NCBI RefSeq assembly: GCF_036345915.1
Contig: NZ_CP107785.1
Span: forward strand, 9,238,001-9,302,000
Length of the DNA: 64,000 nt
Reading direction: 5' to 3'
DNA from: Nocardia sp. NBC_00565
Lineage (GTDB): Bacteria; Actinomycetota; Actinomycetes; Mycobacteriales; Mycobacteriaceae
Part shown: positions 1 to 16,920 of the stretch, piece by piece
Numbering within the stretch: position 1 is the stretch's first letter
How the letters are laid out: each line of letters begins with the position of its first letter
Notes under the pieces: generated by a model
The model's database searches: none
What the model was told of the DNA's origin: nothing
The model's input: the letters and a program-made list of their open reading frames with translations, nothing else
Program-made: the position numbers and the translations under genes

Positions 1-450
1 CGTCGCGGCCACGCCGCCCTCCTGCACACCGGTGACGTAGGCCGCGCCGATCTCCCCGGTCAGCAGCGGATCCTCCGAATAGCACTCGAAGTGCCTACCG
101 CCCAACGGACTTCGGTGCAGATTGAGTGTCGGTGCCAGCAGCATGTGTACACCCTTGCGCCGCGCCTCCTGCGCGAGCAGCCGCCCGGCCCGCCGCGCTA
201 GCGCCGGGTCCCACGTCGCGGCCAGCGCCGTCGGGCTCGGCAGGGCGATCGAGGGATCCTCCGGACTCCAGTGCACGCCGCGCACGCCGATCGGGCCGTC
301 GGACATCACCAGCGAATCCAGGCCGATTTCGGCGATCGCGGGCAACGTCCACATGTCCTGCCCCGCGAGCAGACGGCATCGGGCATCCAGATCCAGTGCG
401 GCCAAAGCCTTTTCGACCGTTGCCTCGCGGTCGGCATGGTGGTTCACCAT
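1..450 (-). CDS. Glycoside hydrolase family 3 beta-glucosidase, N-terminal part (runs off the window start)
   Basis: The first 150 residues of a GH3 enzyme are visible; the C-terminus lies beyond base 1. The protein reads through the family landmarks LLAGQDMWTLP, SDGPIGVRG and LAPTLNLHRSPLGGRHFE followed by CYSEDPLLTG, which build the (beta/alpha)8 barrel and part of the sugar-binding -1 subsite. No signal peptide precedes the domain, so a cytoplasmic glucosidase acting on imported oligosaccharides or glycosides is likely. The ATG at 450 gives a start right at the usual cytoplasmic GH3 N-terminus. It lies 93 bp downstream of a TetR gene on the same strand, which probably regulates it. The family is certain; the substrate cannot be told. 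Confidence 0.9.
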   Translation of the reverse strand, partial: MVNHHADREATVEKALAALDLDARCRLLAGQDMWTLPAIAEIGLDSLVMSDGPIGVRGVHWSPEDPSIALPSPTALAATWDPALARRAGRLLAQEARRKGVHMLLAPTLNLHRSPLGGRHFECYSEDPLLTGEIGAAYVTGVQEGGVAAT

Positions 451-510
451 GATGGTCGACTCCCTTGTCTCGTATGACGCGCGGCATCTACCTCGAAGTA
501 TGCTGGAATG

Positions 511-528
511 ACCTAATGCTCGGTAGGT
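511..528. promoter_or_regulatory. Candidate TetR operator upstream of the GH3 gene
   Basis: ACCTA (511-515) and TAGGT (524-528) form an inverted repeat with an 8-bp spacer in the 93-bp gap between the TetR gene and the GH3 gene. Its position suggests an operator for the neighbouring repressor. The half-sites are short, so this is tentative. Confidence 0.35.
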
Positions 529-543
529 AATGTTATCAATGCG

Positions 544-1203
544 TTATTTGAGGTTCTCTGGGCGAATCAATCGCAGGAAGGTGCGCAGTAGTGCCGGCAT
601 GTCTACCTCGTCCGGCGACAGCAACCATTGCTGCTGCAATCCGTCCAGGACGGCGATGAGCAGCGTGGCAGCCTCTTGATGGGAGACGCCGCGCGGCGGG
701 TCACCATCCAGATCGCGTTCGAGCATGGTGGTCAGCATCCGTCGGGTCTGCGCGTAGCGATCGATGAAGTAGTCGCGCGCGGGATGGTCCTGGGTGACGC
801 TCTCGGCCGCCAGCACGGTGAACGACTGCACGATGCCGGGGCGCTCGGCATTGCGCTCCACCAGGTCGGCGAGGAAATCCAGGGTCGTCGCGCTGCCCTG
901 TGCGGTGGCCAGCAGGACGTCGAGATCGTTCTGGTCACGCAGCGCCAGCACATTCGCCAGCAGGTCCTGTTTATTGGGGAAGTAGTGCAGCACGCCCTGC
1001 TGGCTGAGTCCGACCCGCTCGGCGACGATCGCGATGGTCGCCCCCTGGTAGCCGCGTTCGGCGAAGACCTCGAGGGCCGCCTGCAGGATCGCCGCGCGCC
1101 GATCCTCATGACCGGCACGACCCTGCGGGCGACCGGCGGCCCGTGTCATGCGCTGCGCTCTTCTACGTCCATCATTTGCAGGGTAGCGAACCGCCGTTGA
1201 CAT
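544..1203 (-). CDS. TetR/AcrR family transcriptional regulator
   Basis: A 219-residue repressor with an N-terminal TetR helix-turn-helix at about residues 37-83 (ILQAALEVFAERGYQGATI, then GLSQQGVLHYFPNKQDLL) and a helical ligand/dimer domain behind it. An internal ATG at 1149 would drop 18 N-terminal residues and still leave the DNA-binding domain intact; the longer start has no strong ribosome-binding site, so either is possible. It is transcribed toward the GH3 glucosidase 93 bp downstream, which suggests control of glycoside use. The HTH assignment is secure; the inducer and regulon are inferred from context only. Confidence 0.88.
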   Translation of the reverse strand: MSTAVRYPANDGRRRAQRMTRAAGRPQGRAGHEDRRAAILQAALEVFAERGYQGATIAIVAERVGLSQQGVLHYFPNKQDLLANVLALRDQNDLDVLLATAQGSATTLDFLADLVERNAERPGIVQSFTVLAAESVTQDHPARDYFIDRYAQTRRMLTTMLERDLDGDPPRGVSHQEAATLLIAVLDGLQQQWLLSPDEVDMPALLRTFLRLIRPENLK

Positions 1204-1256
1204 CAGTGTGAAGCGCCGACGCGCGTGCCGTGCCGACGGTGACCGGACGCGCCGCG

Positions 1257-2159
1257 TTATCGCAGTGCGGCGACAACCTGTTTCGCGATGTTCTCCTCAC
1301 CAAAGGTGTTGGGGTGCAAGGGAACGAACGATGGAGTCGATAGCGACGGGATCAGGCCGTTGATCCACTGCTCCTCGGGTGCCGCGCACATATCGTGGCC
1401 GATGCTGGAGGTCGCGGTATCGACGAAAATCGCGCCGTGCTCGGCGGATACCTTGCGCAACAGTGCATTGAGGTTGACCAGCACGGCCTGGAGGTAGTCG
1501 GCGTCGCGCGGCCAGGCGGGCTGTTGTGCGGGGCAGGCGCCCGGCTGCGAGGCGGTGGGGTATCCGACGATCACCACGGTTGCTTGCGGTGCGCGCGAAC
1601 GGATTTCGTCGATGGCGGTGCCGTATACGGGTGCCAGCGCGGTGGTCCGTTCCGCGAAGGTGTCGACGCCGTCCGCGGTGAAGGCGTCCGCGCAGGATGT
1701 GCCGTTGGGCTCCGGCAGGAGATTGCCGCACAGCAGCGCCTGCTTCGCCAGGCCGATGTCGTTGCCACCCATCGTCATGGTGACCAGCGTGGTGTCGGGC
1801 GTGAGGGCATCGAACTGCGGCGCTGCGGCTCCGCTGACAATGCCGCGCTGTGGTTCGGTGAGTTCATCCAGTGTGGCCCCGCCGCAGGTCACGTCCTTGA
1901 AGGTCGCGACGCCCAGCTCCTTCGCGACCAGCGACGGATAGTTGACCGCCGAGCGTAAACATGTGGTGATGTCGGCTTGTGGAAACACCCCCGCGCCCGC
2001 GGCGAAGGAATCACCCAGGGCGACATAGTGGACGCCCTCGGCCGGATCGGCGGTGGCTTGCCCGGCAATTGCCACGCTCGCCCCGAGCGTCATCGTGGTG
2101 GCGATGACCGCCGGTCCCACCTTTACGAGCAGGTGCTTCCAGCTGTCAAGAACTTGCAT
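1257..2159 (-). CDS. Secreted SGNH/GDSL-type hydrolase (lipase/esterase)
   Basis: About 300 residues. A Sec signal peptide (hydrophobic stretch AVIATTMTLGASVAIAG, cleavage near ATA-DP) precedes an SGNH hydrolase: block I GDSFAAGAG with the nucleophile serine, block III GGNDIG with the oxyanion Asn, and block V with the catalytic His in PLHPNTFGEENIA. Cysteines spaced along the chain fit an exported, disulfide-stabilised enzyme. I chose the ATG at 2159 because GAGGAG sits 5-10 bases upstream; an in-frame ATG at 2180 would place that Shine-Dalgarno inside the gene. It probably hydrolyses lipid or acetyl esters outside the cell. The neighbouring genes give no hint of substrate. Confidence 0.9.
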   Translation of the reverse strand: MQVLDSWKHLLVKVGPAVIATTMTLGASVAIAGQATADPAEGVHYVALGDSFAAGAGVFPQADITTCLRSAVNYPSLVAKELGVATFKDVTCGGATLDELTEPQRGIVSGAAAPQFDALTPDTTLVTMTMGGNDIGLAKQALLCGNLLPEPNGTSCADAFTADGVDTFAERTTALAPVYGTAIDEIRSRAPQATVVIVGYPTASQPGACPAQQPAWPRDADYLQAVLVNLNALLRKVSAEHGAIFVDTATSSIGHDMCAAPEEQWINGLIPSLSTPSFVPLHPNTFGEENIAKQVVAALR

Positions 2160-2768
2160 TGTGTCTCCTCGTGAACCCATGACCGGATGAATTCGGGGCG
2201 AAGCCCGGGAAGTAACTCACCCCGAGGTTCGGACCCGGTATCACGTCCGGCCTATGCGGGCAGAGTCTAGCCATGATCCGGTAATTGTGAATAACTTCTC
2301 GCGAACTTCTTGGACGGCCGCCCAGGTTGTCTGCGTGCCGTGGGCCCCGGAACCTCGGGGCATGTTGGGAGGTGGGGGATTTCGCCGCCCAGGGGGCGAG
2401 CGCCTCGCGTTCAGTGGCCATACGTCTAGATGGGGCACTGTTGAGTTCCTCACTATTCGGCCGCTACCTGCGAAAAGCCCGGCGGCGCCGGGCATTCGGG
2501 TTGACACCACCCGGTCCCGTTGTCTACCGTCGCTATTGTTCGCGCTGAGTCATCGCCCGCCTCGGCATTCGTGGTGGACCGCCGTTCATGCGGCTTCGCC
2601 ATATGTTTCGACTGCGGGGAGGCTGTCGTTATTGCCGCACATTCGTCGACGTTCGTCGCATTCACGGAGAAATACGGCGCACCGTTCTTCGCGCCTCGGG
2701 AATAAGACCCCTGCGCCCTTTCGTGAACGCCAAGACTCCACCAGTTCATTTCGACGTTAGGCGCCAGG
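2160..2768. other. Intergenic stretch without a supported gene
   Basis: About 600 bases between the divergently oriented SGNH hydrolase and the P450 chimera. Open frames exist on both strands but none has a recognisable domain, a good ribosome-binding site or consistent GC-rich third positions. It presumably holds both promoters. Confidence 0.5.
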
Positions 2769-4178
2769 TTGTCCGTCTCGATCTCACCCGCCAAGTCCGT
2801 GGACGAGCTCCCGGGTCCGAGCCGATGGCCGTTGCTGGGGAATCTCCCGCAGATGCGCCCATCGCTGCTGCACCACCAGTTCGACGAGTGGTGCGATGAA
2901 TACGGCCCGCTCTACCAGCTGCGGATGCCGGGGCGACGGATCGTTGTCGTCAGCGATCCCGACCTGAATCGGGAGATCCTGCGCGACCGCCCCGGTGGGT
3001 TCCGGCGGCAGTCGGCGATCGAATCGGTCATGGACGAGATGGGATCCAACGGATTGTTCTCGCTGGAGGGTGACGCGTGGCGGCTACGCCGTCGGCTGGC
3101 CATGCCCGCCTTCAACGCCGCGCATCTGCGCAGCTTCCATCCCACCCTGGAGACGATCACCGGACGGCTGCGCCGACGCTGGGAACAGCACTCGCCCAAG
3201 GACATTCGCGGCGATCTGACGCGATACACGGTAGATGTCACCGCCAAGCTGACCTTCGACTACGACATCAACACCATCGAGCAGTCCGGCGACATCATCC
3301 AGCGGCACCTGGAACTGATCTTCCCGCTCATCAACCGGCGGATCAACAGCCCGGTCCCGTACTGGCGCTACGTCAAGCTCCCCGGCGACCGGGCACTGGA
3401 GCGCGCGTTGGCCGCACTGCGCACCGACCTGGCCGCCGTCATCGGTCGAGCGCGCGCGAATTCGCCGCAGCAGCCGACCAATTTCATCGAGGCATTCCTG
3501 CTGGCGCAGGACGACAGTGCCTCCTTCACCGATGACGAGCTGTTCGCCGAGGCGCTCACCATCCTCATCGCCGGTCAGGACACCACCAGCAATGCGATGG
3601 CCTGGCTGCTCTACCACCTTGCGGGCAATCCCGCTGTGCAGGAACGGATTCGGGATGAGGTCACCGAGATTCCCTCGGCGCTGGGCCGTCAGCCCTACCT
3701 GGAAGCCGTAGTCGTGGAGTCGATGCGGCTGCGCCCGACAACCCCCATCGTCGGCCTGGAGGCCGTCAAGTACTACATCCGGGCCGCGAAGCAGCATATG
3801 GGGGAGATGGCCCCGAACGAGGTCATCGGCTACGGACTCGCGGTCACCCTGCCATGGATCCTGGGCCTCAGCTTCGGCCGCACCAACACCGCCGCATCCC
3901 ACCCCATGGGCATCTCCAATGTGCCGGGACCCCGAAACCCGCTGTACTGGAACGGTGCTCGGCTCGAGACGATCTACCCGATCTCGCTCCTGATGCACGG
4001 CAACCCGCTGAACTTCACTTGCATCGGCTATCAGGGCGGGCTGCATTTCGGCGTCCTCGGCGTCCAGGACAAGCTGCCCCCGATGGCGTACCTCACCGCC
4101 GCCATGGATGTCGCAGTCGATGAACTCGCCGATCTGCTCCTGCCGGACGAGGTTCGCACACCGCTCGCTGCGGGGTGA
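2769..4178 (+). CDS. Chimeric protein: heme-less cytochrome P450 N-part fused to WS/DGAT acyltransferase C-terminal domain
   Basis: 469 residues, uninterrupted. Residues 1-332 are a bacterial cytochrome P450: ELPGPSRWPLLGN at the N-terminus, I-helix AGQDTTS (268-274) and the ExxR pair E317/R320 in ESMRLRP. The sequence then switches, at about residues 329-335 (nt 3753-3775), to the C-terminal (DUF1298) domain of a wax ester synthase/diacylglycerol acyltransferase, recognised by ISNVPGPRNPLYWNG and IYPISLLMHGNPLNF. The P450 heme-thiolate Cys loop (FxxGxRxC) is missing, and so is the acyltransferase HHxxxDG motif, so neither activity should survive. This looks like the product of an in-frame deletion between neighbouring P450 and WS/DGAT genes. 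The start is TTG at 2769; GTG at 2799 is an alternative. Confidence 0.85.
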   Translation: MSVSISPAKSVDELPGPSRWPLLGNLPQMRPSLLHHQFDEWCDEYGPLYQLRMPGRRIVVVSDPDLNREILRDRPGGFRRQSAIESVMDEMGSNGLFSLEGDAWRLRRRLAMPAFNAAHLRSFHPTLETITGRLRRRWEQHSPKDIRGDLTRYTVDVTAKLTFDYDINTIEQSGDIIQRHLELIFPLINRRINSPVPYWRYVKLPGDRALERALAALRTDLAAVIGRARANSPQQPTNFIEAFLLAQDDSASFTDDELFAEALTILIAGQDTTSNAMAWLLYHLAGNPAVQERIRDEVTEIPSALGRQPYLEAVVVESMRLRPTTPIVGLEAVKYYIRAAKQHMGEMAPNEVIGYGLAVTLPWILGLSFGRTNTAASHPMGISNVPGPRNPLYWNGARLETIYPISLLMHGNPLNFTCIGYQGGLHFGVLGVQDKLPPMAYLTAAMDVAVDELADLLLPDEVRTPLAAG

Positions 4179-4226
4179 GGTGATGTCGAACTACGCCGTG
4201 GCGATCATCGGCTCAGAATTCAGCTG

Positions 4227-4258
4227 GGCCCCAGTCGATTACGCACCGGACTGAGGCC
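4227..4258. terminator. Hairpin, probable terminator after the chimeric gene
   Basis: GGCCCCAGTC (4227-4236) pairs with GACTGAGGCC (4249-4258) with one mismatch, leaving a 12-base loop. It is a diverged copy of the hairpin at 9970-10005 and lies 49 bp past the chimeric gene. No T-run follows, as is common in high-GC genomes. Confidence 0.5.
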
Positions 4259-4285
4259 GTTGACCGTGGTCAGTCGGGCAGACGG

Positions 4286-4372
4286 TTACTCGGTGGGCCG
4301 GGTGAACTCGCCGTCTTGCATGCCTGCTGTGAAGGCATCCCGCTCGCCGTGTACGAACACCAGTGCAGCGCC
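4286..4372 (-). pseudogene. Relic of a DUF397 gene (C-terminal 28 codons)
   Basis: On the minus strand the frame ends in DAFTAGMQDGEFTRPTE and a stop, almost identical to the end of the intact DUF397 protein at 10030-10245 (DAFTAGMQDGEFTRPTT). DNA similarity covers about 4224-4366 against about 9970-10110 and includes the terminator hairpin, so gene tail and terminator were duplicated or left behind together. Similarity stops abruptly upstream, where the N-terminal WFKSSHS part should be. It is too short to function. Confidence 0.75.
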
Positions 4373-4480
4373 AGGTATCCGGTGCGAGTTCGGGGCTGGC
4401 CTGCCCAACTATGGACTGCTGCAACACTTTCCGGGAACAGGTGCCGATCACGGTGCAGTCCCCGATGGCGTCGAGGCAGA

Positions 4481-5008
4481 ATGGGCGCGGTGGACCTGGA
4501 TATCCTGAGATTGCTCGCCCGGCATCGAACGCCGGTGTTGACCACGATCGCGCAGTGGGCAATGGACATCGGGACCAACGACTTGATTCTACTGCTCGCG
4601 GGACTGGCGATGCTCGGTGTGGTGATCGCCGGACGCTGGTGGCAGCAGGGGATCGCGATCGGCGCCTCGGTATTGGTGGCGCAGGCGTTGGCCAGAGGAT
4701 TGAAGGGCATAATCGCGCGGGCGCGGCCTCCTGCGGACCTCGCGGTGGTCCAGGTCGGGGCGTTTTCGATGCCGTCGACAGTAGCTGCGATGACCGCAGC
4801 CCTCGCGGTGGCCCTGTACTCCATCGTGCCCTGGCGAGTAGGTCATCGGCGCCCGGCAGCGGGACTGCTCGTGACGTTTGTCGTGCTGATCGGATTCGCG
4901 ATGGTCTATCTCGGGGCGCATTGGCCGACCGACGTGCTGGCCGGATGGAGCGTGGGGATGGTCGTCGGCGTCGCCGTCGTCCGGCTGACGCGAACGATGA
5001 GTCGCTAG
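4481..5008 (+). CDS. PAP2-family membrane phosphatase, atypical active site
   Basis: 175 residues with about five membrane segments. It carries the PAP2 superfamily motifs C1 (K-G-I-I-A-R-A-R-P, consensus KxxxxxxRP) and C3 (YLGAHWPTDVLAGW, consensus with the catalytic His and Asp). Motif C2, normally PSGH, reads PSTV, so the acid/base His is missing. Members dephosphorylate lipid phosphates such as phosphatidate or isoprenyl pyrophosphates at the membrane; the missing His makes full activity doubtful. Start ATG 4481 was preferred because upstream codons show no domain and run through the DUF397 relic. It is followed by a convergent GH43-like gene. Confidence 0.8.
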   Translation: MGAVDLDILRLLARHRTPVLTTIAQWAMDIGTNDLILLLAGLAMLGVVIAGRWWQQGIAIGASVLVAQALARGLKGIIARARPPADLAVVQVGAFSMPSTVAAMTAALAVALYSIVPWRVGHRRPAAGLLVTFVVLIGFAMVYLGAHWPTDVLAGWSVGMVVGVAVVRLTRTMSR

Positions 5009-5030
5009 GACGTCGGGGGCGATGTCGATT

Positions 5031-5960
5031 TCAGGGGGCGGATTGTGGGTCGTGTTCGCTGAAGATGGTGGCGTGACGGAGAGTTCCCGACAGGCCGGGT
5101 AGTTCGCGAGGTGTGGTCCAGGTGCGGAAGGTGTCGCGGCTGTCGCTGTAGAAGTACTTGCCTTCGGTGTAGGCGTCGAAAAAGATGCGCCAGCCACCAT
5201 CGGGGAGTTGTATCAGCGACTGCCCTTCCCTCGGCGCGCCCCACCCGGCCCAATCACCTATTCCGACAAACACATACGGCCCCAGCGGGTTGTCGGCGAC
5301 CGCCAATTCGATGTATTTGGTGGTTTCGTTCTTCGTGAACGCGAAGTAGCGGCCGTCCACGACCACCACGGTTGTGTCGATATAGCCGATCGCGGTCGTA
5401 TCGAGCGGGTTCGGCGCCAGACCTGCCATCCGGGCCGGCGCACCCCACGACCGCAACGACACATCGGTGGCCGTCATCAGGAATGGGGTGAAACGCAGCC
5501 CGTTGGACATGGACACGATCACGTTGACGCGCCCATAGACGTCGACGAACCACTCCGGAGCCCAGCACGCTTCCACACCGAGCATCGGAATCGTGTAGTC
5601 GTACAAGTACGTCCAGGTGACACGGTCAGTACTGCGGGCGAATCCGATAGTGTGGCCGTCCCCGGACGCGGTGTAGGTCAGGTAGTAGTCGTCATCGACA
5701 TTGCGGAAGATGCTCGGGTCACGCATGATCCCCGACGGCGGTCGGTAGGCGGGACCGCGTAACAGCCGGAATTTCGTCGCATCAGTCGATTCGTAGACAT
5801 ACAGGTCGGTTTCGCTACCGTTGGTGAAACCGGTCATCGTGTACCGCACCGCCGACGACGACGGCGCGGCGGCCGCGTTGCGACTCGCCCACCCTAGGCT
5901 CAGAGGCAGATTCGCCGACAGCACCAGCAAGGACCGGCGGCACATCTTCGGCGTCGTCAT
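5031..5960 (-). CDS. Exported GH43-like five-bladed beta-propeller glycosidase
   Basis: About 310 residues. An N-terminal export signal with CRRSLLVLSANLPLSL (a twin-arginine-like start) ends near NAAAAP. The mature part repeats propeller-type patterns: MRDPSIFRNVDDDYYLTYTA with an Asp in the position of the GH43 general base, FARSTDRVTWT, CWAPEWF (the usual family E in APE), and late YFYSDSRDTFRTWT. This suggests an arabinanase/xylosidase-like enzyme or lectin-like relative. Start at ATG 5960 begins just before the signal; an ATG at 5945 is possible. Its 5' end lies head-to-head with a hydrolase relic. The fold is well supported, the substrate is not. Confidence 0.75.
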   Translation of the reverse strand: MTTPKMCRRSLLVLSANLPLSLGWASRNAAAAPSSSAVRYTMTGFTNGSETDLYVYESTDATKFRLLRGPAYRPPSGIMRDPSIFRNVDDDYYLTYTASGDGHTIGFARSTDRVTWTYLYDYTIPMLGVEACWAPEWFVDVYGRVNVIVSMSNGLRFTPFLMTATDVSLRSWGAPARMAGLAPNPLDTTAIGYIDTTVVVVDGRYFAFTKNETTKYIELAVADNPLGPYVFVGIGDWAGWGAPREGQSLIQLPDGGWRIFFDAYTEGKYFYSDSRDTFRTWTTPRELPGLSGTLRHATIFSEHDPQSAP

Positions 5961-5978
5961 CGCAGCGATTATCCCTGC

Positions 5979-6167
5979 TTGTTCGCTCTCGATTCGATGA
6001 CACGCCACAAAGCGGCCCTGCACTTCCCCGGCCACACCGATCTGCTCACCAGCCTGGCCGACACGGCAGCCACCTTCCGCGGCGTCGAAATCCCCGACAC
6101 CGGCCACTATCTGGCCGAGGAACAACCCGGCCGAGTCGCCACCGCCCTGCTGGACTTTTTCGATTGA
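5979..6167 (+). pseudogene. Relic of an alpha/beta hydrolase (C-terminal ~55 residues)
   Basis: The frame reads through GVEIPDTGHYLAEEQP and RVATALLDFF, the final strand, catalytic-His loop and last helix of epoxide-hydrolase-like alpha/beta hydrolases. The nucleophile elbow and the first 200-plus residues are missing, because the GH43-like gene begins immediately upstream on the other strand. The apparent start at 5979 is accidental. An intact alpha/beta hydrolase follows 150 bp downstream but is not a close copy. Confidence 0.65.
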
Positions 6168-6315
6168 CCCGCAGGCCCGACAATCGACGCGCTCTAGTGG
6201 TCGTCACTAGGCCGCGCAGCGCCCTGGCCTGGCGCGACCAGGTGGAACACCGTGTCAGTGGCCGTGTCAGACCGGCGTCAGGGTGGTGTCAGGTCAGGCG
6301 CTGATAGTTGCTGCC

Positions 6316-7140
6316 ATGACGAAGAACAGCACTTCCTCGAACAGTTCGAAGTGGACCGGCATGGTGGCGGTCGACGATACGGCCCTGGCCGTCACCGACA
6401 CCGGCGGTCCCGGTATCCCCGTGGTCTACCTCAATGGCCAGTTCGCCACTCAGGGGTACTGGCGCAAGGTCATCGCCGACCTCGGTCCCGGTTTTCGGCA
6501 CATCACCTTCGACGAGCGGGCCCGCGGCAAATCGGAGAAGTCGGCCGACTATTCCTTCGCCACGTGCGTGCGCGACGTCGATGCCGTGCTGGCGGCCAGG
6601 GGGGTGGACCGGGCGCTGGTGGTGGGCTGGTCCTACGGGGCGTACGTCGCGGCGCACTGGGCCAGCCGGAATCCGGACCGTGCCTTGGCTGCGGTCTTGG
6701 TCGACGGCGCGTGCCCGTACGACTGGCTCGACGAGGCCATGGAACAGCGGATCCGCAAGCTGTTCAAGCGGTTGAGCTGGATCCTGCCGCTGCTGCGCCC
6801 GACAGGCCTGACCCCGCGGCTGACCGCCGAACAGCAGGCGAACAGCAACATCGAGCTCGGCAGGATCTCCCGCGAGCGCGAGCTGGGCCCCGTGCTGGAC
6901 AACATCACCGTCCCGGTGCGGTACGTGGTTGCTTCGGGGACGTCCTTCGGAAGCCGCGGTGATGAGCAAGAACGGATACGCACCAGCCTCGATGCGGTGA
7001 CCGCCCGCAACTCGAACATCCAGATCAGCGCGAAGGTCGCCAGCAACCACGGTGCCATCCTGCGCAAGGACTTCCGCGCCGTCGCCGAGGCCGTACGTGA
7101 GACGGCAGCGGCCCATGACCAGGAGGTTTCGCCGAGCTGA
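6316..7140 (+). CDS. Alpha/beta hydrolase
   Basis: 274 residues. The sequence shows the oxyanion region VVYLNGQFATQGYW (the usual HG replaced by NG), the nucleophile elbow GWSYGAYVA, the acid segment near RYVVASGTSF and a catalytic His in SNHGAILRKDF. It is an esterase/lipase-like serine hydrolase, probably cytoplasmic as no signal peptide is seen. ATG 6316 was chosen over 6283 because the family begins with a short polar tail. It is followed after 87 bp by a small conserved gene with a strong ribosome-binding site, possibly one transcription unit. Confidence 0.85.
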   Translation: MTKNSTSSNSSKWTGMVAVDDTALAVTDTGGPGIPVVYLNGQFATQGYWRKVIADLGPGFRHITFDERARGKSEKSADYSFATCVRDVDAVLAARGVDRALVVGWSYGAYVAAHWASRNPDRALAAVLVDGACPYDWLDEAMEQRIRKLFKRLSWILPLLRPTGLTPRLTAEQQANSNIELGRISRERELGPVLDNITVPVRYVVASGTSFGSRGDEQERIRTSLDAVTARNSNIQISAKVASNHGAILRKDFRAVAEAVRETAAAHDQEVSPS

Positions 7141-7227
7141 GCAATCTAGATACCACCCCCGACCGTATTTCACCATCCGTCCGTTCAATTGAATTGCACC
7201 ACAACAGATTTGAAGGAGCACACCACC

Positions 7228-7635
7228 ATGTCCAGCACCCTTACCGACCAGGACAAGAGCACCCTGCGGACCGCCGCGTACGGTGCCGTGTCGCTGATGG
7301 CCGCCGCTGATGCCACCGGCAAGCCCCACAAGGTCGCCACGAACGGTTCCATCGCCCTGTACTCCGCGACCGGCCCGATCGGGCACGTGCTCGCCGCGAA
7401 GTCGAAGGACATCAAACTGAAGGGCAAGTCCGTCGCCGAACTCGCCGATCACGTACTGCCGGCCCTGACCGCCGCCATGAGCCTGCTCGAAAAGCAGGAC
7501 CCGGCAGAAGCCGACAACTTCCGCAGCACCGTCCTCGTCGCCATCGAAGCAGCCACCCGGACCCACCACGGCCAGCCCAGCCCCACCCTGGCCGAGATGT
7601 CCCGCAAAATCACCGAAGCCCTCAACGCCGCCTGA
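7228..7635 (+). CDS. Small conserved actinobacterial protein of unknown function
   Basis: 135 residues, mostly helical, without membrane segments or a known catalytic motif. AAGGAG lies 10 bases before the ATG at 7228, which fixes the start. The N-terminus (TLTDQDKSTLRTAAYGAVSLMAAAD) resembles small proteins seen beside regulators and hydrolases in other actinomycetes, but I can name no function. Its last 14 bases overlap the end of the convergent peptide-deformylase relic. Codon use is typical for the window. Confidence 0.75.
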   Translation: MSSTLTDQDKSTLRTAAYGAVSLMAAADATGKPHKVATNGSIALYSATGPIGHVLAAKSKDIKLKGKSVAELADHVLPALTAAMSLLEKQDPAEADNFRSTVLVAIEAATRTHHGQPSPTLAEMSRKITEALNAA

Positions 7636-8044
7636 TCGGACGCCCGGTAAGTCCGGAGACGTCGAGCCCATACCGTTCAGCTCCAACGGGACCGAGACGG
7701 ACGAACCGCCGTCGGAATTCATGGGCAACTCGGCATCGCAAACCGCCCAAGTGCTCTCGAAACTCACGAACATAGCTCCAGGTTTGGCCGGTCTGTCGGT
7801 ATTGCTCGACTGGGATGGGTTTGATACCGGCGCGCATTCGCGAGGTGTACAGGATGTCGTCGAGGTGGTCGATCTCGTGTTGGATCAGCCTCGCGATCGC
7901 GTCTCGGTATTCACGGGTAATCAGTTCCCCTGTGAGAGTGGTTGATTCGACGACTATGCGCAGTGGTCGTGGTACCAGACCACGGACGTCGAAAAAGCTC
8001 AGGCAGCCCTCGTACCGCTCGTCCTGTTCATCGGAGCGGGCCAC
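7622..8044 (-). pseudogene. Truncated peptide deformylase
   Basis: The frame contains deformylase motif 2 (EGCLSF, metal-ligand Cys) and motif 3 (QHEIDHLDDIL, two His ligands and the catalytic Glu), and a C-terminus with PIPVEQYRQTG typical of actinobacterial homologues. Motif 1 (GxGLAAxQ), which carries the catalytic Gln, is missing. Reading upstream in frame gives QVLLNPQIVARSD, then a TGA about 26 codons before the Cys motif, and further deformylase-like words appear in another frame. The gene has therefore lost its 5' half and probably suffered frameshifts. The GTG at 8044 is only the first start codon in the surviving part. An inactive relic is most likely. Confidence 0.7.
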
Positions 8045-8429
8045 GATCTGCGGGTTCAGCAGAACCTGACCCGGAAGTTCCCTGTGACCGACAGACCGGT
8101 CTCATGGCCGCCCTGGCACGCAGCTTGCTGATCACCTCCTGATTCGTCGGGTCGTTCGACGAGCTGGCCAGTTGGCGGACAGCTCGGGGTCGATCACATT
8201 CCGGAAACCGTTGCGTCGCTTCTCACTTTGCGGCTCGGGTGAGAAGATCTTCGCTGCGTCCCCCACCATCGTGAACTGCGACCGATAAGAATCACTATGG
8301 GTCTGCCGAGCGCATCAAGTGGTAGCGGTGTGTGGTCAGTTGGAGACGGCATCATCATCCGCGGTGGCCCAGACCCACTCGCGCCCCTCCGCCTGGTGAA
8401 CACTCAGGCCGGAGCAGGGCCGGCACTGA

Positions 8430-8643
8430 CCACAACTCATCGAACAATGGGAAGAACACCACACCGATCGCGGCAAAGCTCCCGCCAACATCAAGGGCTG
8501 GCTGAAGACGAAGAATATTCTTCCGCAAGACAACTCGGCACTGGATGAACGTATTCGAGATGCTTCGGTGAAGGCAGGCGAGAGCGACGACGTCTCGCTG
8601 CACGAGGATCTGCGGAAACTCGCATCGGTACTCGGGAGGCCGA
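8430..8643 (+). pseudogene. Protein-coding relic of unknown family
   Basis: After a TGA at 8427-8429 the plus strand reads LIEQWEEHHTDRGKAPANIK, then GWLKTKNILPQDN and ERIRDASVKAGESDDVSLHE, which looks like genuine soluble helical protein but has no start codon of its own with a ribosome-binding site. The upstream sequence in this frame is closed. It ends against the convergent DUF6188 gene. Together with the deformylase relic it makes 7.7-8.6 kb a graveyard region. The rest of 8045-8430 shows nothing recognisable. Confidence 0.4.
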
Positions 8644-9015
8644 TCAGTCGGCCGTCCAAATTGCCAGCTCACCATTCGGCATACATACGACCCGATAACC
8701 GTTCGGACCTACGAGTGTCCATGCCTCGTATTCCTTATCTGCCGGGACCACGAGCCGGTTCCCGGAGTCCAAGTCGATGGTCAGAGTTCCTGAAGAATTC
8801 ACGACAGCGGAAGTGATCGCGCCGCGAAGGATGGGTTCGAGATCGCTCTGCGAACCGCCCCCGTTCGCGAGCGCAACAGACCATCGGTCGCCTCGGCTGG
8901 ATTCGATCTCCATATCTCCCTCGATCTGGAGTTCGAATCCGCCGCCGGTCGAGACCTCGACCATGTACTCGCTGGCAGCGACCGAGACGCGCTGTCCGGT
9001 TATCGGCAATTCCAT
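8644..9015 (-). CDS. DUF6188 family protein
   Basis: 123 residues, beta-rich. The C-terminal half (GTLTIDLDSGNRLVVPADKE, then YEAWTLVGPNG and MPNGELAIW) matches the small actinobacterial DUF6188 family, often found near contact-dependent toxin or immunity-type genes, though no function is established. ATG 9015 is preceded by AAGG six bases upstream; an ATG two codons earlier (9021) is an alternative. It lies next to the unidentified relic at 8430 and head-to-head with an alpha/beta hydrolase. Confidence 0.75.
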   Translation of the reverse strand: MELPITGQRVSVAASEYMVEVSTGGGFELQIEGDMEIESSRGDRWSVALANGGGSQSDLEPILRGAITSAVVNSSGTLTIDLDSGNRLVVPADKEYEAWTLVGPNGYRVVCMPNGELAIWTAD

Positions 9016-9104
9016 TACCATCCTTGTGGCTTGGGGAAAATGTCGCACGAGACGATGGACAGCCTGTGGTCGACGCCAGGGGCTGGGTGAAGGGGAGCTG
9101 ACCG

Positions 9105-9890
9105 GTGCAACGCCTCGAATTGAGTTCTGTGGACGGTATCCGGCTGGACTTCGCGGTCCACCACTCCACGGTCGAGCCCCCACTAGGAGTGGTGCTGTTA
9201 GTGCATGGCATCACGGTGGACATGGACGAGGGCGGGGGCATGTTCGTCCGGTTGGCGCAGCAGTTGGTGTCGCAGGGGTTCGATGTCGTGCGGTTCTCCT
9301 TCCGAGGGCACGGTGCGAGCGGTGGAACTCAGCAGGGTGTGACGATCGCCGGTGAATGCCTGGATCTGCAGGCCGCAGTGACCGCGGTCCGCGAGCGATT
9401 CGCTCGGCAGCAAATGTCGATTGTGGCGGCGAGCTTCGGTGCCGTGTCGACGGCACTGTCGCTGTCGTGGCTCGACGATCTCTATCGGTTGGTGCTGTGG
9501 AATCCGGTGCTGGATCTGCGGCGCACGTTTCTGGTTCCGGAGTTGGCGTGGGGCGAGGAGAATTTCGGCGCTGTTGGGCGGAAATATCTGGCCGACAATG
9601 GTTTTCTGCTTGTCGACGGTGAGTTCCAGCTCGGCCGTGTCCTGTTCACTGAGTTCGCGCTTTACCAGCCGCTGGACGACTTCCTCGCAGCAGACGTGTC
9701 GACGCTGATCGTGCACGGCGACCACGACACGGCAGTGTCGTATGACGTCGCTGCCCAGGCCGCGCGATCACGATCACATACCACGCTGTGCACGATTGCC
9801 GGGTCGGACCACGGATTCGACTCGCGGGCGCGCGAAGACCAAGCGATCAGCACGACCGTCGACTGGCTGCTCGAACAGTCGATGTCGTGA
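9105..9890 (+). CDS. Alpha/beta hydrolase (serine aminopeptidase/monoacylglycerol-lipase-like)
   Basis: 261 residues starting at GTG 9105 with GGGGAG upstream. Family features are LLVHGITVDMDEGGG (oxyanion HG), VVRFSFRGHGASGG, the nucleophile elbow AASFGAVS (small residue-X-Ser-X-Gly), the acid IVHGDHDTAVSY and the His SDHGFDSRARE. This is the Hydrolase_4/S33-like branch acting on small esters or acyl substrates in the cytoplasm. It stands alone and is followed by a strong hairpin shared with the convergent DUF397 gene. Confidence 0.87.
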   Translation: MQRLELSSVDGIRLDFAVHHSTVEPPLGVVLLVHGITVDMDEGGGMFVRLAQQLVSQGFDVVRFSFRGHGASGGTQQGVTIAGECLDLQAAVTAVRERFARQQMSIVAASFGAVSTALSLSWLDDLYRLVLWNPVLDLRRTFLVPELAWGEENFGAVGRKYLADNGFLLVDGEFQLGRVLFTEFALYQPLDDFLAADVSTLIVHGDHDTAVSYDVAAQAARSRSHTTLCTIAGSDHGFDSRAREDQAISTTVDWLLEQSMS

Positions 9891-9969
9891 CGAGCGTGAA
9901 GCTCTCGCAACTGTATGCGCCGATCCGAGCCATGGGGCAAGAACGCGGCGCGCACTCTATGTAATGGAC

Positions 9970-10005
9970 ACGGCCCCAGTCCATTACGTATTGGACTGAG
10001 GCCGT
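9970..10005. terminator. Bidirectional hairpin terminator
   Basis: A 13-base arm (9970-9982) pairs with 9993-10005 with a single mismatch around a 10-base loop. It lies between the convergent hydrolase and DUF397 genes. An alternative arm, GTAATGGAC (9961-9969) with GTCCATTAC (9980-9988), would compete with it. A diverged copy lies at 4227-4258. Confidence 0.65.
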
Positions 10006-10029
10006 TGGCCGTGGTCAGTCTGGAAACTG

Positions 10030-10245
10030 CTACGTGGTGGGCCGGGTGAATTCACCGTCTTGCATGCCTGCTGTGAAGGCATCCCACTCGCCGGGGGTGA
10101 ACACCAATGCCGGGCCGTTGGGGTTCTTCGAGTCTCGGATGCCGACGTGCCCGGCTTGAAGCCAAGCTACCTCGACGCATTCGTTTCCCCCGCCGCCGCT
10201 GTGCGACGACTTGAACCACTGCTTGCCGGATAGGTCGATGGTCAT
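10030..10245 (-). CDS. DUF397 domain protein
   Basis: 71 residues covering the whole DUF397 domain: WFKSSHSGGGGNECVEVAW at the N-terminus, VGIRDSKNPNGPALVFTPGEW in the middle. In actinomycetes these small proteins are paired with a Scr1-type XRE regulator, and the pair behaves like a regulator with a small partner or antagonist. Here the ATG overlaps the stop of the upstream Scr1 gene by four bases (ATGA), indicating translational coupling. A 3'-end copy of this gene survives as a relic at 4286-4372. Confidence 0.9.
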   Translation of the reverse strand: MTIDLSGKQWFKSSHSGGGGNECVEVAWLQAGHVGIRDSKNPNGPALVFTPGEWDAFTAGMQDGEFTRPTT

Positions 10246-11117
10246 TGTTCGTGTCTCCTTGCTATCTTTCTCATTCGATCCCTGGACTGTTGCTCGTCCA
10301 GCGCCGCGTGCCGGAGGGTTTCGTGGAGTGCGCGAAAGTGCTTCACATCGTCGCCGTCTTCGAAGAACATCGAAGTCACAACAGCTTCGGTGTAGACCAC
10401 GGATGGCTCGTTGTCCGGGAAATTGAGGATGATATGGGGCGTTACCACACTCCCGGTTGGGATACCGGCCGTGAACGGCACGACACGCACCGACACGTTG
10501 TCGCGGGTACTCAGATCGGCTATGTGCCGCAGCTGAGCACCCATTATCTGGCCAGAGCCGACGAGGGAATACAGAACATTCTCGTGCAACAAGAATTCGG
10601 CACGAACCGCCAGGTGCGGACGAGTGAGTATCCTCGCCCGCTGTATTCGGAGATCCACCCGGTTGTTGATCTCGTCCATTGAGTCATCCGGCTGGTGAAG
10701 CCGTTCCACGGTCCGGGCATAGTCTTCTGTTTGCAGCAAACCAGGTACGATAATCGGTTGATAGAACCAGGATTCCGACGCGAATGACTCCAGCTCGAGG
10801 TACGTCTTGAACACTGGCAACATCAAATCTCGATAGTCCTGATACCACACCTTCGTATTGAATTGGCCCGCAAGAGCTTTCAAGTACTGGGTCCGAGCGT
10901 CGGGCAGGCAGTAGTACCGGCACAGGTAATCGACTTCCATATCCCTGACCTTCGTATACTGCCCCAGTTCGATCCGACTCAGCGTGGCGCGGCTGATCCC
11001 AGTCGCCGCCGCTACCTGGTCGAGCGTCAAACCTCGCGCCTGGCGCGCGTCTCGCAGCGCCCGCCCCAACTGACGACGCGGCAGTGTCGTGCCGCGGAGG
11101 TCTGCTTTGCTCGGCAT
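10242..11117 (-). CDS. Scr1-family XRE regulator (HTH plus DUF5753)
   Basis: 291 residues. Residues 17-75 form a Cro/C1-type helix-turn-helix (LGRALRDARQARGLTLDQVA, ATGISRATLSRIE). The remainder is the DUF5753 domain: WFYQPIIVPGLLQTEDYAR and LLHENVLYSLVGSGQIMGAQLRHI. This architecture always accompanies DUF397 proteins, as here. ATG 11117 has a G-rich ribosome-binding site; an in-frame start ten codons upstream is less likely. The pair is divergent from a four-gene cassette starting at 11370 and probably shares its 250-bp promoter region. Confidence 0.9.
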   Translation of the reverse strand: MPSKADLRGTTLPRRQLGRALRDARQARGLTLDQVAAATGISRATLSRIELGQYTKVRDMEVDYLCRYYCLPDARTQYLKALAGQFNTKVWYQDYRDLMLPVFKTYLELESFASESWFYQPIIVPGLLQTEDYARTVERLHQPDDSMDEINNRVDLRIQRARILTRPHLAVRAEFLLHENVLYSLVGSGQIMGAQLRHIADLSTRDNVSVRVVPFTAGIPTGSVVTPHIILNFPDNEPSVVYTEAVVTSMFFEDGDDVKHFRALHETLRHAALDEQQSRDRMRKIARRHEQ

Positions 11118-11369
11118 AGTTGCCCCCTGCTTTCTCAACCAATGCACCTGTTGTTTCTCAGTCTGAGAATCAGCCTTGATGGCCCTCGAGAATCATGCTG
11201 GGCGTTTGCGCCTCTTCTCTGAACGTCTCACACAGAGTCTCCACGCACCGACCGACGCGCGCAACCATATCGGCACAGCCAAGCAACGCGGAAGCCAACA
11301 GCCCGAACGGGTTCGGGCAGGCGGCGTTGGACTGCGAGGTTATTCCCGACGAGCGAAGGCATCAGAACG

Positions 11370-11741
11370 ATGACTAACAAGCAAGTGGCAGAACCAATTA
11401 CAGGGCAATCCCAGAGGCCGAAGGCAATCGGATTCGTGCGTGGTGACGTGTCCGGACTGGCGGCACCCAGGCACGCGAGCGCCGTCACGAAGCATGCCCG
11501 GCTGCTGGGCTATGAGTACGTTTACACGGTGCGGCCTTCCCGGGGCACCCCCGATCCGATCGGTTACGCGCTCGGTATTGCGGCGGGGCCGGATGTGGTG
11601 GCGATCGTGGTCTTCGACTTGGCCCACGTCGACAACCAACCGGCGCGAGTCTGCGAGGACTTCGACCTCGAAACCGTTTGCCCCGCAACCACATGGCCAC
11701 GCGCCACGCGCCCGGTCGCAGTCGAGGCGGGGGCGGCGTGA
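11370..11741 (+). CDS. Small conserved protein with resolvase-like N-terminal pattern
   Basis: 123 residues. The order IGFVRGDVSG..ASAVTKHARLLGYEYVYTV..VVAIVVFDLAHVD resembles the start, helix A and second strand of serine-recombinase catalytic domains (IGYARVS, then a helix and VVVxxLDRL), but the catalytic serine and the arginines of real recombinases are absent. I recognise the sequence type as a recurrent Nocardia protein without known role. It is the first gene of a tight cassette: its TGA overlaps the next ATG by one base. The resolvase relation is an inference from pattern only. Confidence 0.7.
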   Translation: MTNKQVAEPITGQSQRPKAIGFVRGDVSGLAAPRHASAVTKHARLLGYEYVYTVRPSRGTPDPIGYALGIAAGPDVVAIVVFDLAHVDNQPARVCEDFDLETVCPATTWPRATRPVAVEAGAA

Positions 11742-12079
11742 TGCGCGAGGAGAGCACGATCGTGACGCCGCCCGGGGTGTGCGGGCACGCCGATATCGAG
11801 TTGGCGCATGAGCAGATGCGCAAGCACCGCGCCTGCCGCCTCGGGCGGTGCGTGTGGAAGGCGGCGGCTTATTACACGCTGGTGGATGCGGGTCGACTCG
11901 CGCCGCAGTCGCTGACTCCGCGTGAGCGGGCGGCTGCGCGGGGGATCGAGTTCCCGCCGTTGGGCGGCGAGCCGCTCGCACTCGGCGGGCCGACGCAGCG
12001 AACTCTGCGCGAGGTGCTGGACCGGCTCTCGGAGTTGGCGTTACCGGTTCCCGGTGCGAATGTCGGCGGCCACGGGTAG
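11741..12079 (+). CDS. Cassette gene 2, cysteine-containing small protein
   Basis: 112 residues from ATG 11741, which overlaps the preceding stop (TGATG), so translation is coupled. The segment CGHADIELAHEQMRKHRACR, then LGRCVWKAAAYYTLV, has three Cys and two His that could bind a metal, but no known zinc-finger spacing is matched. The C-terminal half is a polar helix. No function is known; it belongs with the genes on either side. Confidence 0.65.
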   Translation: MREESTIVTPPGVCGHADIELAHEQMRKHRACRLGRCVWKAAAYYTLVDAGRLAPQSLTPRERAAARGIEFPPLGGEPLALGGPTQRTLREVLDRLSELALPVPGANVGGHG

Positions 12080-12084
12080 CGCCG

Positions 12085-12351
12085 GTGTCCGGGACGGGCG
12101 AGCGTCATACGGAGGTGGACGGCTGGCTGGCGACCTGGCGGCTCGAGCGCCACTGCATTCGAATAATGCTGGTACGCAATGCATCCGAACTGCTGATATC
12201 GGTCACCACCCCGGCCACCGCGCCGGACCTGGTGCAGATGCGCGAGCAGTTCCCGAAGCTGTCGCGATTGTGGGATGCGATACGACACGAGTATTGGCTG
12301 GAATCGCTTGCACCCCAAGAGCATTCACAGGGCGGAAAGGCAGTCTGGTGA
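12085..12351 (+). CDS. Cassette gene 3, small hypothetical protein
   Basis: 88 residues from GTG 12085, five bases after the preceding stop. It has a W/H/R-rich start (VDGWLATWRLERHCIRIMLV) and a polar helix. No domain is recognised. Tight spacing and the GTGA overlap with the next gene support reality as part of an operon. Confidence 0.6.
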   Translation: MSGTGERHTEVDGWLATWRLERHCIRIMLVRNASELLISVTTPATAPDLVQMREQFPKLSRLWDAIRHEYWLESLAPQEHSQGGKAVW

Positions 12352-12530
12352 CATCGGATCCGGTCTCGCCCCGGGCGCGGCTGCTCACGAAGCGGGCCGC
12401 GCGAGCGGGCTACTGCTTGATGCGCGATCCCCGGTCACCGTATGCGTGGACCTTGCTGGACGCCGAGGACGGTACCTGCGTCCACTCGGCGGCGACGCTC
12501 GACCTGATCGAACAATGGCTCTCCGAGTAA
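12348..12530 (+). CDS. Cassette gene 4, 60-residue protein
   Basis: 60 residues from GTG 12348, overlapping the previous stop by four bases (GTGA). The sequence includes RAGYCLMRDPRSPYAWTLLD and ends DLIEQWLSE, a pattern seen in tiny actinobacterial proteins that repeat a short beta-hairpin plus helix. No function is known. It closes the cassette that is divergent from the Scr1-DUF397 pair. Confidence 0.6.
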   Translation: MTSDPVSPRARLLTKRAARAGYCLMRDPRSPYAWTLLDAEDGTCVHSAATLDLIEQWLSE

Positions 12531-12759
12531 GGAACCTGCTCGACAGCCTTGATCTGAAATCGGGTCCGCATGCCGCGCAGTCTGTTCGGCAGTACGCGGG
12601 GAGAATGCCTGGCAACTTATCTGCGGTTGACCGGCCTTGGTCTGCTGCACAGCGCGTTGTGATGTGTCACGGTTGCACACCAACAGTGATGCACGTTACT
12701 GTACCGACTCGTTGATGGGAACGAAGTAGTTCCTCATTGCCGGGAGGGTTTGGGCAAGC

Positions 12760-14790
12760 ATGATCCGACGTCGACGTCCGATTAAGGCAGTCGCTGCCGC
12801 GATAGCCACGTTCACCGTGTTTGCCGGGGCCGTGGTCGCGGCGGCGCCGACGCAGGCGACGCAGGGGCTCGACGCCCAGTTCACCGCCACTCATGCAGGG
12901 CCGCAACAGTATCCGAATGTCTACATCGATTGGGACGTCCCGATCACGATGAGCGACGGCACGGTGCTGAAGGCGAATGTCTACCACCCGGCGGACGCGG
13001 CCGGACGCCCGATCGCCGAGCCGACGCCGACCATAGTGAACCTGACGCCCTACACCAAGCTGATGGCGAATATCGCCGACTCCGTACTGGCCATCCCGGG
13101 ACTGGCGGATCCGCTGATGCAGGCGCTGCACGGCTTCGATCTCTCGGCCTACGGTCTGAGCGGAATCAGTGATGTGGCACAGGCATTGGCGGGCGGCACC
13201 GCGCGCACCTTCGCGGTGGATCGCAAGCTGGTGCAGAGCGGCTACACCCAGGTGGTCGTCGATGTTCGCGGCACGGGTTTCTCGCAGGGCACCTGGCAGG
13301 TGTTCGGCGAGCGCGAGCAGGAGGACGGCGTCGAGGTCGTCGACTGGGCGGCGGCGCAGCCCTGGTCCAACGGCAGGATCGGGATGAGCGGCATCTCCTA
13401 CTCGGCGATCAACCAGTTGCATACCGCCGAGCGCAAACCAGCTGCGCTGCAGGCGATCTTCCCGATCGTGCCGGGCAGCGATCTGATCCGCGACGTGGCC
13501 GCGCCGGGTGGCGCGCTCGGCATCGGATTCATCCCCGAATGGCTGCTCGCGGTCGACGGCACGAAGTTGATTCCCGATGTGGTGTCGATGCTGGCCGGAA
13601 AATTCGACTGGACCTGGCTGGCCGATCGCGTCCGTGACCCGTTCACCTTCTTCAACATGATCATCATGGCGCTCGGCACACAGAGCGTGGATCAGATTCC
13701 GGCGGAGCTGAACTCGGTGCTCGACGACCAGAGTCCGTTGCGCACGGCGTGGATCGGACATCCCGAGCGCATCGATGTGCCGACCTTCGTCTACGGCGGC
13801 TGGCAGGATATCTTCGCCTACTCCTCGCCCCGGGTCTACAACGCGATCAAGGTCCCGGACAGCCAGAAGAAGCTGGTGATGGACAACAACTATCACGTCA
13901 CCACCGGTTCGGGCATGGGTGACGACGGTGGGCCCGCCGCGCTGGACGTGCTGCAGCGCGCGTGGTTCGACAAGTGGCTCAAGGGCATCGACAACGGCAT
14001 CGATGGCTACGACCAGGTGACCCTGTGGCAGCAGGGCGGCGGATGGACCCACAGCTCGGCGTTCCCGCGACCCGATTCGGATTACCACCGTATGTATTTG
14101 AACGCGGCGGCCTCGGGTACCGCACCGGGCAGCGCCTACGACGGCAGCCTCACCACGGAACCGGGCAACCCGGCACGGATTTCGATCGCACCCGGCTTGA
14201 CCACACTCTGCTCGCGCGACGGTGCGCAGGGCACGGCGGGCATCCTGCCGCTACCCGATATCTGCACGAAGGATTCGCGGATCGCCGAGTCCAACGGGCT
14301 GACCTTCACCAGCGCACCGGTGAACGTCGCGACACCGATCTCCGGTCCGATCGCCATCCACCTGAACACGGTCCTGGACGCGACCGACGGCTACTGGACG
14401 GTGACGCTGAACGATGTTGCGCCGGACGGACGTTCGACCCAATGGACGCACGGCCAGCGCACAGCGTCGCTGCGCGCGGTGGACGAGAGCAAGGCCACCC
14501 GCTCGGCCAACGGCGACTACACCGATCCGTATCCGTATCTGACGCTGGACACCCGCGAGCCGATCGTGCCGGGCCAGCCGACGGTCATCGATATCGGGCT
14601 GGTCGCCACCGACGGTGTGCTGCAACCGGGACACCGGCTGCGCGTCGATGTCTACGCGGGGAACTTCCCGAGCAGTCTGCCGTTGCGGCCCTTGCTGAAC
14701 GAGAGCGGGCTGCAGCCCCAGCACATCGAGCTGGATCCGAATCAGCCGAGCTGGGTGAATATTCCGGTAGACGGCGATCCGGGCTGGTGA
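12760..14790 (+). CDS. Secreted CocE/NonD-type hydrolase (X-Pro dipeptidyl-peptidase S15-like)
   Basis: 676 residues. A Sec signal (RRRRPIKAVAAAIATFTVFAG, cleavage around TQAT) is followed by the S15/CocE alpha/beta domain: the substrate strand DGTVLKANVYHPAD, VVVDVRGTGFSQG, the nucleophile elbow GMSGISYSA with Ser213, and the His in NNYHVTTGSG. From about residue 450 a jelly-roll C-terminal domain (SGPIAIHLNTVLDATDGYW, GHRLRVDVYAGNFPS) completes the family. Typical substrates are acyl esters, acylated peptides or cocaine-like esters; the real one here is unknown. Start ATG 12760 has GGGAGGG upstream. It ends one base before the convergent TetR gene. Confidence 0.88.
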   Translation: MIRRRRPIKAVAAAIATFTVFAGAVVAAAPTQATQGLDAQFTATHAGPQQYPNVYIDWDVPITMSDGTVLKANVYHPADAAGRPIAEPTPTIVNLTPYTKLMANIADSVLAIPGLADPLMQALHGFDLSAYGLSGISDVAQALAGGTARTFAVDRKLVQSGYTQVVVDVRGTGFSQGTWQVFGEREQEDGVEVVDWAAAQPWSNGRIGMSGISYSAINQLHTAERKPAALQAIFPIVPGSDLIRDVAAPGGALGIGFIPEWLLAVDGTKLIPDVVSMLAGKFDWTWLADRVRDPFTFFNMIIMALGTQSVDQIPAELNSVLDDQSPLRTAWIGHPERIDVPTFVYGGWQDIFAYSSPRVYNAIKVPDSQKKLVMDNNYHVTTGSGMGDDGGPAALDVLQRAWFDKWLKGIDNGIDGYDQVTLWQQGGGWTHSSAFPRPDSDYHRMYLNAAASGTAPGSAYDGSLTTEPGNPARISIAPGLTTLCSRDGAQGTAGILPLPDICTKDSRIAESNGLTFTSAPVNVATPISGPIAIHLNTVLDATDGYWTVTLNDVAPDGRSTQWTHGQRTASLRAVDESKATRSANGDYTDPYPYLTLDTREPIVPGQPTVIDIGLVATDGVLQPGHRLRVDVYAGNFPSSLPLRPLLNESGLQPQHIELDPNQPSWVNIPVDGDPGW

Positions 14791-14791
14791 G

Positions 14792-15439
14792 TCAGGAGCC
14801 GAGCAGTACGAGCGCGGCGCGAGTCAGGGTGGGAGCCAAGGCCGGTAGATCCTGCGGGCCCGATTCGATCAGGGTGGCCCGGACCCGATCGTCGATACCG
14901 CCGAGCAGCACGTCGAGCAGTCCGGGATCGGGTTCGGCGTGAACTTCGCCCGCGCGCATGCCGATTCGCGCGGCGGCGATCATCCGGTAGCCGAACATGC
15001 GATGGGTGCGGGCCCGGCGCGCGATGAGTCCCGGTCCGGCGGCGAGGGTTTCGATGTGCAGTGCGCGCGCCGCCGCAGGTTCGGCCGCCAGGAATTCCAG
15101 ATAGGTCTCCAGCGTCGTGCGCACCAGTTCGACGAAGGTGTCCGCGCCCGACTCGGTGACCACGCGGTCGAGCTCACGGGTGATGACCTCCACCGCGAAA
15201 TCGAATGCGGCGGTGAAGCATTCCTCTTTGCTCTCGAACAGCACGTAGAAGGTTCGCCGGGCGACCCTGGCCCGGCCGACGATATCGGTGATGGTGGTGG
15301 GGCCGTAGCCCAGCTCCGCGACCGCTTCCAGCGCGGCGATGTAGAGCCGCTCGCGCTGTGACGTCACGACCTCGTCCCGGCTCAATCGGTGCGGCCCTCG
15401 AGGAAGGCGGCCGGGAGAAGCGCTGGTCAAGACGGTCAT
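14792..15439 (-). CDS. TetR/AcrR family transcriptional regulator
   Basis: 215 residues with the HTH at about residues 31-75 (LYIAALEAVAELGYGPTTI, RARVARRTFYVLFESKEECF) and a helical C-terminal ligand domain. It is convergent with the CocE-type hydrolase, the stops being a base apart, so it need not regulate that gene. The upstream gap to the transpeptidase gene is 132 bp and contains no obvious long palindrome. Target unknown. Confidence 0.85.
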   Translation of the reverse strand: MTVLTSASPGRLPRGPHRLSRDEVVTSQRERLYIAALEAVAELGYGPTTITDIVGRARVARRTFYVLFESKEECFTAAFDFAVEVITRELDRVVTESGADTFVELVRTTLETYLEFLAAEPAAARALHIETLAAGPGLIARRARTHRMFGYRMIAAARIGMRAGEVHAEPDPGLLDVLLGGIDDRVRATLIESGPQDLPALAPTLTRAALVLLGS

Positions 15440-15571
15440 AGTGTCGATGATTCTGCCACACGGGGCACTTTCGCCCGGAAATTCCGGTGAGACGCAGAAG
15501 GTGAACCGCTGCTACCACCCGCGGCTGCACGAAACCATGGTCGTCGCACCGTAACTCAGGCGCTGGGTTGC

Positions 15572-16789: not shown

Positions 16790-16920
16790 GATTCTCCTGC
16801 TGTTTCGCCGTGCGTTCCCTGCGGCGCATCTAACGACGTACTGGCCCGTGCCGTAGTTTACCGGCCATTTCGCGGGTATTTCGCCGCTGACCGTGTGACC
16901 TGCGCCGATCCCGCCCGCAC

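Follow-up and report, generated by a model that had tools for sequence, protein, structure and literature searches.

The principal result of the analysis of a 64,000-nt stretch of the Nocardia sp. NBC_00565 genome (hereafter the window; positions 9,238,001-9,302,000 of the 9.71 Mb genome) is that its open reading frame (ORF) 2769-4178 on the forward strand, which joins the beginning of a cytochrome P450 to the end of a wax ester synthase/DGAT (WS/DGAT), is very probably a recent, lineage-specific chimeric pseudogene made by a deletion in a P450-WS/DGAT gene pair. In this explanation, a deletion of about 1.37-1.39 kb inside the pair would have taken the last ~119 P450 codons, a short gap and the first ~331 WS/DGAT codons, and would have left the remaining ends of both genes in one frame by chance; one in three random deletions preserves the frame. 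Judging from their family names, the parents presumably act in lipid metabolism. The coordinates of the relevant features are collected in Table 1.

Table 1. Features of the window at and around the fused ORF (positions counted from the first nucleotide of the window).
Feature	Position	Strand	Basis and remarks
GDSL-type lipase, upstream flank	1257..2180	-	Collinear with four relatives; control gene
P450, 5' part	2769..3764	+	Codons 1-332, TTG start; PF00067 match
Deletion junction GAGGCC/GTCAAG	3764..3765		Blastn breaks and letters on both sides
WS/DGAT O-acyltransferase, 3' part	3765..4178	+	137 codons and stop; PF06974 match
FAD monooxygenase (FMO) stub	4183..4227	+	Alignment to the start of the relatives' FMO; blastn end at 4227
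Stretch without counterpart in the four closest relatives	4228..12545		8.3 kb, blastn collinearity; homology resumes at 12546-12601
S15-type hydrolase, downstream flank	12760..14790	+	PF02129/PF08530, collinear with four relatives; control gene

The fused ORF begins with TTG and comprises 469 codons with zero internal stops. Its two Pfam matches, to PF00067 (residues 15-326; profile positions 2-339 of 462; 166 bits) and to PF06974, WS_DGAT_C (residues 319-453; profile positions 12-144 of 145; 67 bits), clear their curated cutoffs (22.8 and 20.7 bits, respectively) by a wide margin. The whole-protein NCBIfam model TIGR02946 aligned over its positions 319-451 of 453 with 83 bits, below its cutoff of 309.95. 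Among the best 60 of 276 matches to solved structures, the top ones were P450s of the P450-reductase type, extending from residue 13 to about 333, while the acyltransferase 7nxg matched residues 317-449. The P450 part shares 91-92% amino-acid identity with the complete 451-aa P450s of the four closest relatives (G009, G045, G117 and G121), and the WS/DGAT part, equivalent to 135 codons at the end of the relatives' gene plus a two-residue insertion, shares 91-93% with the WS/DGATs (466 aa) of three close relatives; 451 and 466 aa are the lengths of the two proteins in all four closest relatives. The protein P0077 is 94% identical in the WS/DGAT part. The motifs AGQDTT and ESMR, which we take to be the I-helix-type and ExxR motifs of P450s, are retained in the P450 part, and ISNVPGPR and IYPISLLMHG occur in the WS/DGAT part. 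An in-frame chimera with its boundary at residues 332/333, an open frame and these same motifs had been described in a first-pass annotation, and this description is borne out by the two Pfam matches, by a blastn break at 3764 and by a reading of the ORF itself.

The heme-ligand Cys loop of P450s follows the pattern FxxGxRxCxG; no such loop exists in the fused ORF, from which the C-terminal quarter of the P450 is gone. Overall, about 110-120 P450 profile positions and all of PF03007, the catalytic domain of the acyltransferase, are missing, and in terms of topology the P450 part has lost the stretch with the thiolate ligand together with the remainder of the fold after the K helix. Neither does the fused ORF contain HHxxxDG, a motif of WS/DGATs reported to take part in catalysis (PMC5407786). 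If made, the fused product would thus be expected to ligate no heme via thiolate and to transfer no acyl group; it probably does not fold, and either parental activity is unlikely.

Searches of other Nocardia genomes recovered the two parents as separate genes. The P450 was matched (E<=1e-60) in 17 of 150 Nocardia genomes including its own, that is, in 16 of 149 others, and a search of 148 genomes gave the same 17. A match continuous over residues 1-469 was obtained in its own genome alone, whereas in the 16 others the P450 match stops at residues 333-348. A WS/DGAT gene lies 3' of the P450 on the same strand in 15 of these 16 genomes, the sole exception being G006, with no WS/DGAT in the stretch examined. 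All 15 pairs are complete, with no inner stop in either gene, and the two genes are separated by -4 to 45 nt, depending on the assigned starts. The Cys loop, as FGAGPRFCPG or FGSGPRFCPG, is present in the P450s of all 15 relatives with the pair, as is HHxxxDG, in the form HHSL[LFV]DG, in their WS/DGATs. These complete adjacent parents, continuing past the junction, substantiate the earlier proposals that a deletion fused two neighbouring genes and that each parent lost the part holding its active-site residues. In particular, the pairs of N. vinacea NBRC 16497, N. anaemiae NBRC 100462, N. pseudovaccinii NBRC 100343 and others have the same order and strand as in the window, and the four closest ones also share its start codon, are collinear with it in the flanks and are 91-93% identical to it over the retained parts; they differ in being two complete genes with both the Cys loop and HHxxxDG, whereas the window carries one fused gene with neither.

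The first-pass annotation had considered that a continuous family of the same architecture would make the chimera an established domain fusion. No such family was found: the architecture occurs in one of the 150 Nocardia genomes, and among the protein matches listed (best 120 of 420 and best 120 of 207) the only fusion proteins were those of the window's own cluster. An established fusion, from which the separate genes of the relatives would have arisen by splitting, is accordingly extremely improbable; no support for it was found, and against it stand the separate complete genes in 15 of 15 genomes with the pair and the fact that in G121 each parent matches its own Pfam family or families over nearly the full length.

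Codons 332 and 333 (nt 3764/3765) flank the deletion junction. On the P450 side, the four closest relatives align in blastn up to 3763-3765; on the WS/DGAT side, the alignment restarts at 3762, and the missing piece amounts to 1386 (G121), 1385 (G009), 1386 (G117) and 1374 nt (G045), lengths measured in the relatives, from which that in the window's own ancestor may differ. Comparison of the junction letters in seven relatives (both sides in six) showed a single base certainly common to the two parental sites, or the pattern GCNG at the very most. Since no repeat is visible at the parental sites and a Ku gene was found in the same genome, end joining is a reasonable route, and the deletion may have been an event of this type, with almost no shared end sequence. 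The missing piece has zero matches elsewhere in its own genome, while the same query matched three of three relatives searched alongside; its translocation within the genome was therefore rejected on the basis of this whole-assembly search. The possibility that the junction is an error in the deposited assembly, which draws on its being a single observation, is highly unlikely: parental sites sharing at most a 4-nt pattern leave no repeat to collapse, the assembly is a single 9.7 Mb contig with 100% estimated completeness, and the deleted piece is unmatched across the whole assembly.

The damage extends beyond the fused ORF. The FMO gene that follows it is reduced to about its first 14 codons, the end of FMO homology in the window being approximate, and its frame then crosses unrelated sequence until the stop codon at 4252-4254. 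The stub reads GSEFSW versus GSGFSG in the relatives, where the last letter may fall at the break. The FMO (FMO-like, PF00743) is complete in G009, G045, G117 and G121, where it either abuts the WS/DGAT gene or overlaps its end, with matches covering 488-489 of 489 residues. No FMO match was found at E<=1e-15 in positions 1-20000 of the window, and the gene is absent from the examined stretches of the other 12 P450-bearing genomes. The best-scoring FMO elsewhere in the window's own genome is 43% identical and the best-scoring other P450 30%. With the FMO cut to a stub besides the fusion deletion, the P450/WS/DGAT/FMO cluster has thus been damaged twice, and the whole cluster seems to have been lost in this lineage. 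The 8.3 kb stretch beyond the stub, pieces of which match scattered places in the genomes of the four closest relatives, marks a second rearrangement. The downstream flank gene was found at 79% identity in five genomes (G008, G041, G048, G059 and G066), none of them a P450 carrier, and with the P450 in only 16 of the 149 other genomes the cluster is therefore patchy in its distribution.

Two further observations concern the content of the 8.3 kb stretch. A 3' fragment of a polypeptide deformylase gene (7622-8044, reverse strand; profile positions 84-151 of 156) looks like another gene remnant. An alpha/beta hydrolase region (9041-9928) matches G121 in two places with 94% identity and G045 in one with 93%. 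It is more alike between these species than the P450 locus, and is possibly a mobile or recently spread segment.

Selection on the fused ORF was assessed with a branch codon model in which the window branch was left free (467 codons, five taxa; also eight taxa). For the whole ORF, omega was 0.073 on the window branch versus 0.045 elsewhere with five taxa (p=0.11), and 0.084 versus 0.068 with eight (p=0.56). The P450 part gave 0.062 versus 0.047 (p=0.46), and the WS/DGAT part leaned upwards with five taxa (0.104 versus 0.041, p=0.08) and gave 0.119 versus 0.074 with eight (p=0.55), omega=1 not being rejected in the latter case (p=0.18). Over the whole window branch, omega=1 was rejected with p=8e-40 (five taxa) and p=4e-5 (eight taxa). 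The control genes behaved similarly in that none changed significantly: the lipase gave 0.124 versus 0.088 (p=0.24), the S15-type hydrolase 0.052 versus 0.044 (p=0.59; 493 of 676 codons, because the sequence stretch from one relative ends early) and a tetR gene 0.082 on both (p=1.0). Neither positive selection nor a marked relaxation was seen on the window branch, the rise in omega not being significant. At columns otherwise invariant, the window alone differed three times in the P450 part and never in the WS/DGAT part; the 13 other taxa compared had 0-8 and 0-7 such changes of their own, respectively.

In two-phase models, the best neutral share of the branch was near 0.02 with five taxa (log-likelihood lower than the best by 1.34 at 0.05 and 4.18 at 0.08) and near 0.01 with eight (lower by 1.49 at 0.08 and 2.55 at 0.12). 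If the ORF is now neutral, the neutral phase would span 0 to about 6% of the branch (five taxa) or 10% (eight taxa), which leaves room for some 0.02-0.03 neutral substitutions per site, at most, after the fusion event. Given the low omega and the short neutral phase permitted, the fusion is either recent or selected, and the codon models agree in this with the same proposal in the first-pass annotation. A low omega is compatible with a pseudogene only in the case of a young deletion. The lack of any stop or frameshift and of a significant rise in omega was counted against the pseudogene, as a kept protein would show the same.

The competing explanation is that the fusion has been kept: a P450-derived fold that no longer ligates heme through a thiolate would, together with the WS/DGAT C-terminal domain attached to it, serve to bind lipids or a partner, or as a dimerisation module. 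The open frame, the low omega of 0.073 on the window branch, the number of window-unique changes (three and none, inside the range of the 13 other taxa) and a TTG start common to the P450 genes of the four closest relatives, preceded by bases much alike in the window and the relatives, are all consistent with it. This explanation is nevertheless unlikely, since the fusion is found in its own genome only (among the 150 Nocardia genomes and the protein clusters of the matches listed), each part lacks whole core stretches rather than one residue, the low omega may predate the fusion and the neighbouring FMO has been lost. Structure prediction gave no more than a hint in either direction: AlphaFold2 gave the fused ORF (30-row alignment) a mean pLDDT of 35.1 and a pTM of 0.23, with zero residues at pLDDT 70 or more, although the intact G121 P450 used as a control (15-row alignment) was also poorly modelled (mean pLDDT 44.9, pTM 0.44, 50 residues at 70 or more), both alignments being shallow. 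Confidence in the control was higher around the strands at 48-61 and 327-352. The former are missing from the chimera model, and the sequence after 332 has been removed by the deletion, a contrast that is no more than suggestive with alignments this shallow. With its start codon and a good deal of the preceding sequence matching those of the relatives, the fused ORF may be transcribed; a promoter and terminator scan returned one site each, both on the opposite strand and not clearly above shuffles. It is quite improbable that the ORF is also translated and has been retained as a two-part scaffold without catalytic activity, made of a P450 N-terminal part and an acyltransferase C-terminal domain; if true, this protein architecture would be the only one of its kind among the matches listed.

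Read as a recent chimeric pseudogene, the fused ORF is a deletion-made chimera of a known kind, in a pairing absent from the literature searches and from the protein matches listed. A deletion-made chimera of neighbouring genes is described for CDR1B.1/CDR1B.2 of Candida parapsilosis (PMC11620501). Both cases involve a deletion between two neighbours that yields a single chimeric gene, although CDR1B.1 and CDR1B.2 belong to one gene family, whereas the parents in the window are unrelated and both lack the part with the catalytic residues. Natural P450 fusions, such as P450-reductase (many PDB entries) and P450 with a Rieske domain (PF00355+PF00067), likewise combine a P450 and a second domain in a single chain. 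These are known as complete P450s with a redox partner, unlike the P450 of the window, which ends before the Cys loop. Judged from search results alone, the literature held nothing on point for the P450-WS/DGAT pair or such a fusion. The locus is a clear case, and one that can be dated relatively, of an in-frame deletion between neighbours creating an ORF; annotation accepts this ORF as a two-domain protein although both parent enzymes are lost. Such an architecture should not be taken as a new enzyme, nor should this genome be counted as having this P450.

The intact pair is itself of interest. Represented by positions 5001-7790 of the G121 locus L034 and by counterparts in 14 other genomes, it shows a conserved adjacency that may merit separate study. 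In some genomes, an FMO-type monooxygenase or an Asn-synthase-like gene adjoins it. The Asn-synthase-like gene of G121 (L034 9258-10286) covers positions 2-141 of 354 in PF00733 only and is matched in two pieces in five other genomes (G117, G083, G084, G113 and G138), and it therefore looks truncated or rearranged in G121.
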